NCBI RefSeq assembly: GCF_013372125.1
Contig: NZ_CP053826.1
Location: forward strand, 558,001-622,000
Reading direction: 5' to 3'
From: Campylobacter curvus
GTDB taxonomy: Bacteria; Campylobacterota; Campylobacteria; Campylobacterales; Campylobacteraceae
DNA: 64,000 nt
In this document: in pieces, positions 39,792-41,337 of the stretch
Layout: each line of letters starts with the position of its first letter
Position numbering within the stretch: position 1 is the first letter of the stretch
Translations under genes and position numbers: made by a program
Notes under the pieces: model-generated
Database searches by the model: none
What the model was told of the DNA's origin: nothing
Seen by the model: the letters and a program-made list of their open reading frames with translations, nothing else

Positions 39792-40421
39792 ATGAAAGAA
39801 ATTTTTGAAACTCTCATAAAGCAGACCGCTAAACCCCTGCTTAAAGAAAATGGCTTTACTAAAAAAGGTCTTAACTTTTTCAAAAAGCAAAACGAACTCA
39901 TCTTCACCATAAATTTTCAAAAAAGTAGCACAAATTCGCCTTTTGAGACTAAATTTTACATCAACTGCGGAGTTTATGCGTCGATTTTTGACACCACGCT
40001 TGGTAAAAATGCGCGTCTTTACCCCAAAGAGTATGAGTGTCATTTTAGAGAGAGGATCTCGGCTATCCTCAAAGAAAAAGATGGATACTTTATCGATCAA
40101 AATACCGACGTAAGCGAGCTTGGCAAAAAGCTGACGCAGGATCTGAATTTAGCGATCAAATTCTTTGACGAGATAAAAAACGCCGATGATCTTGTGAAAA
40201 TTTTATTAGCTAAGGGTGGGCTAAATTTGATAGATACGATTTTTGAATACCTTTTAGCAACCAAAAATGAGAAAAATTTCATAGAACAAAGCTGGAAGCT
40301 TCATGCAAAATACGGAAATGAAGCAAGATGGCAAATTTTTGAAAATAAGATAAATAAAATGCTCGAAAAATATGGGCTAGAAAAGGTAAATTTTAATGAA
40401 ATGGTAAAAAGGTCGGACTAG
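39792..40421 (+). CDS. DUF4304-type protein, unknown function
   Basis: 209 residues, soluble. The N-terminal half fits the DUF4304 pattern: FETLIKQTAKPLLKENGFTKKGLNFFKK, then ELIFTINFQKSSTNSPFETKFYINCGVYAS and a CHFRERIS segment. The second half is a long helical region rich in Lys/Glu. No enzyme motif is visible. The domain is found scattered in bacteria, sometimes near toxin-immunity loci, but nothing here supports that. Its TAG stop lies inside the loop of the bidirectional terminator shared with the convergent selenoprotein gene. Confidence 0.75.
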   Translation: MKEIFETLIKQTAKPLLKENGFTKKGLNFFKKQNELIFTINFQKSSTNSPFETKFYINCGVYASIFDTTLGKNARLYPKEYECHFRERISAILKEKDGYFIDQNTDVSELGKKLTQDLNLAIKFFDEIKNADDLVKILLAKGGLNLIDTIFEYLLATKNEKNFIEQSWKLHAKYGNEARWQIFENKINKMLEKYGLEKVNFNEMVKRSD

Positions 40422-40429
40422 CCGACCTT
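40409..40429. terminator. Bidirectional terminator
   Basis: AAGGTCGG (40409-40416), loop ACTAG, CCGACCTT (40422-40429): 8-bp GC-rich stem preceded by A5 on the plus strand. It separates the convergent DUF4304 and SelW-like genes. Confidence 0.75.
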
Positions 40430-40433
40430 GAAA

Positions 40434-40691
40434 TCAAGCTGTCTTGCGCCCTAGATGCTTATTGATAAGCCTTGTGATCTCTTCGCCGTGAGGAAATCTC
40501 GCCTCATCGTTACCGATTCGATCTTTTTTTGAAAATATCACGTCGCCATCAACTTCGACGATAAAATTTCCACCGTCTCCAATGACTAAATCAACTCTTG
40601 CATCGCCGAAATTCTTTTTTATCTCATCTTCTACACGAGAAGCTACCGGACGATAGTTTCAAGAGTTGCAGTAAATGATTTTTACGTGCAT
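40434..40691 (-). CDS. SelW/SelT-like (Rdx) selenoprotein with in-frame UGA
   Basis: Reading from ATG 40691 (AAAGGAAAG ribosome site) gives MHVKIIYCNS, then TGA (40661-40659), then NYRPVASRVEDEIKKNFGDA and onward without stop to TGA at 40434, 85 residues counting the UGA codon. The Cys8-x-x-Sec11 arrangement after a first beta strand is exactly the redox motif of Rdx/SelW thioredoxin-like proteins. The rest has the family pattern, including VIGDGGNFIVEVDGDVIFSKK and a final helix with FPHGEEITRLINKHLG. A small hairpin starts at the UGA, as bacterial SECIS elements do. The family is thought to act in redox reactions of unknown target. A plain gene caller would split or miss it. The alternative, a dead gene with a nonsense mutation, is less likely because the stop falls precisely at the Sec/Cys position. 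Confidence 0.88.
40639..40661 (-). promoter_or_regulatory. Candidate bacterial SECIS hairpin
   Basis: From the UGA on the minus strand: GAA (within and after UGA), one A/C mismatch, CTATC (40656-40652), loop GTCC (40651-40648), GGTAG (40647-40643), and TTC closing with GAA. That is a 3+5 bp stem with a tetraloop containing GU, comparable to the SelB-binding GU loop of known bacterial SECIS. The loop lies close to the UGA, so details need checking by folding. Confidence 0.6.
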
Positions 40692-40750
40692 CGCTCTTTC
40701 CTTTCTTTTGAGATAGGCCTTGATATTAGCATAAATTTATTAACGAGCAG

Positions 40751-40779: not shown

Positions 40780-41337
40780 ATGAAAAGAGTTGCGGTGATT
40801 TTTGCTAACGGTTTTGAGGAAATAGAGGCTTTGAGCGTTGTGGATATTTTAAGGAGAGCCGACATAGACGCTTTGTGTGTAGGGCTTGATAGGGCTTTGG
40901 TGGTCGGATCTCACGGCGTTAGCGTGAAAGTCGATCTGCTACTTAGCGAGCTAAGAGAGATAGAGCTCGATGCTATCGTGCTTCCCGGAGGACTACCCGG
41001 TGCACAAAATTTAGCAGACAGCAAGGAGCTTGGTGAAATTCTAAGACGCTTTGATGATAACGGCAAGCTAATCTGCGCGATCTGTGCCGCACCGATGGCA
41101 TTGGCAAAAGCGGGTGTTTTAAAAGACGCTTTTACTTGTTATCCCGGCTTCGAGACAAACGTGAGAGCCGATAAAAATGGCTACATCAGTGATAAAAACG
41201 TGATCTGCGATCATAACATAATGACATCTAGAGGACCTGCAACTGCTATGGAATTTGCCCTTGAGATCGTCAAAGAGCTAAACGGCACAAGCTCGTATGA
41301 GAGCGTTAGAGACGGATTGCTTTATCATAGTTTATAA
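40780..41337 (+). CDS. DJ-1/PfpI family protein
   Basis: 185 residues, class I glutamine amidotransferase-like fold of the DJ-1/YajL/ThiJ subgroup. The nucleophile elbow is AICAAPMALAKAGVL with Cys near 107, the partner Glu lies in NGFEEIEALSVVDILRRA (Glu15-type of DJ-1), and LPGGLPGAQNLA supplies the glycine-rich oxyanion region. Members act as redox-sensing chaperones or glyoxalase/deglycase-like enzymes; the actual activity is debated. Divergent from the selenoprotein gene, 88 bp apart; a shared redox role is possible but only inferred. Confidence 0.92.
   Translation: MKRVAVIFANGFEEIEALSVVDILRRADIDALCVGLDRALVVGSHGVSVKVDLLLSELREIELDAIVLPGGLPGAQNLADSKELGEILRRFDDNGKLICAICAAPMALAKAGVLKDAFTCYPGFETNVRADKNGYISDKNVICDHNIMTSRGPATAMEFALEIVKELNGTSSYESVRDGLLYHSL

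Follow-up and report, generated by a model that had tools for sequence, protein, structure and literature searches.

A SelW selenoprotein in Campylobacter is already known in kind. PMC1242214 (2005) tabulates SelW of C. jejuni as a prediction, and a selW orthologue was later placed in an intergenic transcript of the same species (PMC3847290, 2013). Across epsilonproteobacteria, SelW genes were described as "completely missed" by annotation and their SECIS as a covariance-supported hairpin with base pairs 1–5 and an invariant G; one putative SelW, that of C. fetus, was reported without an optimal SECIS (PMC4607533, 2015). Evidence reported for full-length SelW in C. jejuni consists of ribosome occupancy in Ribo-seq, a termination peak, and peptides from beyond the selenocysteine (Sec) site (PMC11955535, 2025). 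According to PMC1794560 (2006), Cys homologues of SelW-like proteins are rare or absent in organisms that contain Sec, and a recent list gives SELENOW-like proteins as CxxU proteins of PF10262 (PMC13188914, 2026).

Here we analyze a locus of C. curvus in a stretch of 64,000 nt (hereafter the window; positions 558,001 to 622,000 of contig NZ_CP053826.1, forward strand), and all window positions are counted from its first base. A preliminary description had proposed, from the sequence alone, that an in-frame UGA hides a SelW-like selenoprotein on the minus strand. That proposal is correct: 40434..40691 is almost certainly a SelW selenoprotein gene with UGA 11 decoded as Sec, a reading that draws on a family match, the sel genes of the genome, a UGA conserved in orthologues, and a covarying SECIS hairpin.

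An In-Frame UGA in a selW-Like Gene

Direct reading agrees with the preliminary description in coordinates, frame, motif, and number of internal stops. The minus-strand frame runs from ATG 40691 to a terminal TGA at 40436-40434, a total of 86 codons, and under table 11 its single internal stop is the TGA at 40661-40659, codon 11, in the context YCNS-U-NYRP (table 1). Signals around the gene were mostly read by eye. The terminator-like stem 3' of selW, which overlaps the end of the convergent gene, is absent from the output of the pattern scan, and promoter-like sites found by pattern scan say little, with three found against 1.3 expected.

Table 1. Features of the selW locus, in window coordinates
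Feature	Position	Strand	Details and basis
selW-like CDS	40434..40691	minus	85 residues, Sec at residue 11; sequence reading, PF10262, NF041051
UGA codon read as Sec (residue 11)	40659..40661	minus	read directly; every one of 47 genus copies has one TGA
C-x-x-U redox motif, codons C8 N9 S10 U11	40659..40670	minus	read directly; in the model, after strand 2-8 and before helix 14-27
Bacterial SECIS apical hairpin CUUCU-CGUGU-AGAAG	40628..40642	minus	16 nt after the UGA, in the CDS, codons Sec+6 to Sec+11; covariation
Shine-Dalgarno-like AAGGA	40699..40703	minus	7 nt 5' of the ATG; by eye, putative
Terminator-like stem AGGTCGG / CCGACCT, then T run	40406..40428	minus	directly 3' of selW; by eye, putative
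DJ-1/PfpI gene, divergent from selW	40780..41337	plus	PF01965, E 1.9e-44

With the TGA read as Cys for profile searches, the read-through protein matches Pfam Rdx (PF10262; E 2.8e-17, 63.1 bits against a curated cut-off of 22.6) and the NCBIfam model NF041051, "SelTWH_Campy" (E 3.5e-31, 107.3 bits against a cut-off of 88), over 75 or more residues. A profile built from 20 relatives recovers eight PDB sequences at E <= 0.01, including SelW 2npb and other SelW-related entries. In an AlphaFold2 model (mean pLDDT 79.9, pTM 0.68; residues 59-63 and 83-85 below 50), C8-N-S-U11 lies after a predicted strand and before a helix. The best Foldseek match of the model is 2fa8_A (E 1.1e-5, TM 0.78), consistent with a thioredoxin-like fold; the top 23 rows all belong to the eight PDB entries also found by the sequence profile, and identity is 22-29% over the top 20 matches. 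Profiles, PDB entries, and model agree with the assignment to the SelW/Rdx family. In all five PDB relatives displayed (3dex, 2fa8, 2ljk, 2obk, and 2oka), Cys occupies the Sec column. A single-protein search also found one named relative, with 89% identity, a Campylobacter sp. MAG.

The preliminary description had further predicted that standard annotation drops or truncates the gene. This held in the past, as reported for epsilonproteobacteria (PMC4607533), whereas a dedicated NCBI model, NF041051, is now available. The present case is one more confirmed gene of a class that annotation has tended to miss.

Conservation across the Genus and Class

Sec-containing SelW is close to universal in the genus: the gene was found in 47 of 48 genomes, our own included, and each copy has exactly one TGA. 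Across the class sample, NF041051 matches occur in 115 of 397 genomes and 16 of 68 genera, and 116 of the 119 matching rows contain one TGA. Among 14 control genomes, two give an NF041051 signal and none exceeds the cut-off. With Pfam Rdx as the query, 116 of 397 phylum genomes have a match at E <= 0.001, 115 of them over the cut-off; the additional genome (G321) falls below it and has five stops, and no further Rdx match lacking a TGA was found in these genomes.

Three NF041051 rows have no TGA. Two are CxxC copies in tandem arrangements of genus g3 (L100 and L109), and the third is L138 of genome G123, where the matched stretch begins 3' of the motif; a UGA is present there, with no Cys three residues before it. 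The preliminary description had proposed a look for CxxC orthologues in related Campylobacter. Relatives carry a UGA at the same place, and CxxC orthologues are nearly absent from the sampled genomes, with just the two copies, each in tandem beside a CxxU copy. This near-absence fits the statement on few Cys homologues in PMC1794560.

Other SelW copies also vary in number and motif. In L100 and L109, a CxxU copy adjoins the CxxC copy, and a third tandem pair of genus g3 (L107) has a UGA in both copies, with an additional codon ahead of the hairpin in the second. These tandem pairs, in three genomes, possibly represent a natural series for a change from Sec to Cys after duplication. In genome G337, a second SelW-like frame (L124) reads YSKU, such that the Cys partner of Sec is missing, and all five hairpin pairs are kept.

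Substitutions 3' of the UGA were compared with six relatives over 46 codons, beginning 20 codons after the UGA. Against four of the relatives, pS is 0.23-0.71 and pN 0.02-0.09; against the two more diverged ones, pS is 0.77 and 0.88 and pN 0.14 and 0.19, with synonymous changes saturated. By this measure, the codons 3' of the UGA evolve as protein-coding sequence.

The gene is dispensable, since one genome of the genus (G033) lacks it and 282 of the 397 class genomes have no NF041051 match. Genome G033 has neither an NF041051 nor an Rdx match despite having matches for selA, selB, selD, and tRNA-Sec.

Selenocysteine Machinery

All four of selA, selB, selC, and selD, which the preliminary description had put forward as a check, are present in the genome according to profile searches and ARAGORN. 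The genes selA and selB are above cut-off and adjacent at 1669518-1672642, selD is above cut-off and has its own in-frame TGA, and tRNA-Sec is above cut-off and called by ARAGORN as tRNA-SeC with anticodon TCA. Matches to the tRNA-Sec model alone are weak, because 5 of 14 control genomes also exceed the cut-off of this model, compared with two for selB, one for selA, and two for selD; the ARAGORN call was added for our own genome because of this low specificity.

Across the genus, selB is above cut-off in 48 of 48 genomes, and selA, selD, and tRNA-Sec are each above cut-off in 47. The exceptions are G040, with selA split over two contigs; G043, 68% complete, with a fragment of selD; and G032, with tRNA-Sec just below the cut-off. 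Each of the 47 selD matches above cut-off has one TGA. In the selD of our genome (L140, outside the window), a SECIS-like hairpin, GACCC-GGC-GGGUC, was paired by eye 12 nt after the in-frame TGA.

The genome has additional genes with in-frame TGAs. Two of 11 matches to the molybdopterin oxidoreductase family PF00384 each contain one (G000:C1:755600-756901 and 1664733-1666166, both outside the window); these are likely further selenoproteins and are candidate formate dehydrogenases or relatives. A Sec-containing thiol peroxidase is credited to C. curvus in PMC4607533, and the seven PF08534 matches in our genome contain no TGA.

A SECIS Hairpin Supported by Covariation

To define the hairpin across genomes, 142 loci (some genomes twice) were reduced to 134 Rdx hits and 131 UGAs with sequence context. 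The three hits set aside are the CxxC copies L100 and L109 and the shortened motif of L124. The 131 contexts correspond to 88 distinct sequences of 90 bases, and after one with Ns in the hairpin (L137) was dropped, 87 rows remained.

Across these distinct sequences, the 5-bp stem has standard pairs in 434 of 435 cells, compared with 173 to 306 when the 3' arm is slid by one to three bases. Fully paired stems number 86 among the 87 rows; 1000 arm shuffles, which do not keep relatedness, gave 28.4 on average and 42 at most. Between lineages, the arms differ in matched pairs: CUUCU/AGAAG, CUGCA/UGCAG, CUUUC/GAAAG, CUUCC/GGAAG, CCUCU/AGAGG, CUCUG/CAGAG, and CUACC/GGUAG. Loop position 2 is G in every row. 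No outer stem is conserved: 86 of the 87 rows have a nonstandard G-A at the next position outward. Only L138 has a broken stem, the copy of G123 that has no Cys three residues before its UGA; protein and RNA parts seem to be decaying together in this sequence.

Because of an extra codon in both CxxC copies, each was examined in two registers. The stem of L100 has three of five pairs without and two of five with a one-codon shift. The stem of L109 has none without and four of five with the shift, and the shifted register lacks the loop G.

On its own, the window hairpin folds no better than shuffled sequences (z -0.15) and is not in the minimum-energy fold of the stretch; covariation is therefore what carries the case for a SECIS. 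At gathering scores, Rfam lists only a tRNA at 964-1045 in the window and nothing at the selW hairpin.

Residue Covariation Probably Imposed by the Hairpin

The hairpin probably leaves an imprint on the protein. Residues Sec+7 and Sec+10 share mutual information of 1.55 bits, 0.86 of the larger entropy, over the 87 rows, whereas the next-best residue pair reaches 0.41 (first 18 residues, columns with entropy above 0.6 bits). The combinations across the sampled class include Ser/Glu, Ala/Ala, Phe/Lys, Leu/Arg, and Thr/Val. The two residues are tied through the stem, whose opposite arms contain their codons, and complementarity from codons +6 and +7 predicts residue +10 in 83 of 87 rows. Every one of the 87 rows has a Watson-Crick pair between the third bases of codons +7 and +9; in 72 of them residue +9 is Val, which leaves the third base of its codon unconstrained by the protein. 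Rows are related rather than independent, and the counts are not to be read as probabilities. That pairing is kept even at these synonymous sites implies that selection acts on the RNA.

We suggest, with good confidence, that the SECIS hairpin as an mRNA structure causes the covariation of Sec+7 and Sec+10 at the protein level in SelW. Contacts between the two residues may play no role at all, although residues 18 and 21, as they are numbered in the model, also lie in one helix (14-27). The controls considered were the two CxxC paralogues and the five PDB relatives displayed. Among the literature titles and openings of abstracts that were listed, we found no earlier report of SECIS-driven residue covariation, and this may be the only part of the present findings that is unreported. 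If true, SelW would be a clean natural case in which coevolution in an alignment, usually read as 3D contact, arises from mRNA structure. It would be a compact instance of a protein sequence shaped by RNA structure, and a reason for care when contacts in selenoproteins are predicted from coevolution.

Genomic Neighborhood

The preliminary description had named a divergent DJ-1 gene as a redox-linked neighbor, and both its identity and its placement hold. The starts of selW and the DJ-1 gene are separated by 88 bases. Within the flanks that were fetched (about 1.5 kb; 1 kb for 17 of the genus loci), DJ-1 neighbors selW at 45 of the 47 loci of the genus and at 33 of 49 further loci of the same family, whereas none of 25 loci from other families has it there. 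Wherever found, it is on the strand opposite selW. The two exceptions in the genus are L045 (G032), whose DJ-1 match falls on a different contig, and L046 (G044), which begins at a contig end and whose genome gave no DJ-1 match. The pair may share a promoter region and a redox role. On the other side of selW, the convergent gene encodes DUF4304 and the next encodes EF-P.

In G033, the genome of the genus without selW, no selW was found beside the DJ-1 gene (L145). There, DJ-1 sits behind two thiamine-type genes, presumably thiD and thiE.

Alternative Readings and a Proposed Mechanism

Other readings of the locus are possible, and each has some evidence in its favor. The gene could be decaying, with a UGA that is a genuine nonsense mutation and only a remnant frame beyond it; there is one internal stop under table 11, and one copy from another genome (L138) has the look of decay, with the Cys missing and the stem broken. 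We give this next to no weight, given a single TGA in each of the 47 genus copies, low pN against pS 3' of the UGA, a hairpin that covaries, and a full Sec gene set in the genome. It is also very unlikely that the locus produces a conserved small RNA instead of a protein. The same transcript in C. jejuni was first listed as an sRNA, CJnc60; PMC11955535 places it among sRNAs and mentions an existing proposal that it encodes an unannotated SelW homologue, but the length of the family match and the constraint at the level of codons point to a protein, as do the ribosome occupancy, the termination peak after the full-length stop, and the peptides that PMC11955535 gives for C. jejuni.

A further reading treats the UGA as mostly a selenium-dependent switch, with a 10-residue peptide as the main product when selenium is lacking. 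In vivo recoding at a SECIS-dependent UGA has been put at 30-40%, with sufficient selenium needed (PMC4513850). However, it is the long product that is conserved, and we saw no sign that the 10-residue peptide has a function; we consider a switch unlikely.

For a SelW selenoprotein, the preferred reading, we infer Sec insertion in the present strain. The mRNA would be translated through UGA 11, and the in-CDS hairpin, from 16 nt downstream, would recruit SelB and the selenocysteyl-tRNA made by SelA and SelD. Sec would enter the C-x-x-U site of a small thioredoxin-like Rdx protein, where the selenolate could attack an oxidized substrate and C8 could resolve the resulting bond. SelW most likely acts as a thiol/selenol oxidoreductase. 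The sequence shows the family, the conserved UGA, the Sec genes, and the covarying SECIS; the redox chemistry and the substrate are inferred.

Comparison with Known Systems

The gene falls within described families at the level of both protein and RNA. With Rdx proteins of PF10262 (SelW/SelT/SelH; 2fa8, 2obk, 3dex, 2oka, and 2npb), it shares the profile, a thioredoxin-like fold, and the position of the CxxC/CxxU motif, and differs from the five structure relatives displayed in having Sec in place of Cys. The hairpin resembles the minimal bacterial SECIS of the E. coli Fdh type, as cited in PMC4607533, in having a short in-CDS stem 3' of the UGA and a G in the apical loop; unlike that type, it has no conserved outer stem. 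It is of the type described in PMC4607533, a hairpin of 5/6 bp with an invariant G. The closest systems are C. jejuni SelW (CJnc60 / Intergenic_671549-671895) and other epsilonproteobacterial SelW proteins, which belong to the same NF041051 family and share C-x-x-U. C. jejuni SelW is reported to be 80 or 81 aa long (PMC11955535) versus 85 here, and our comparison found nothing that sets the two apart in kind.
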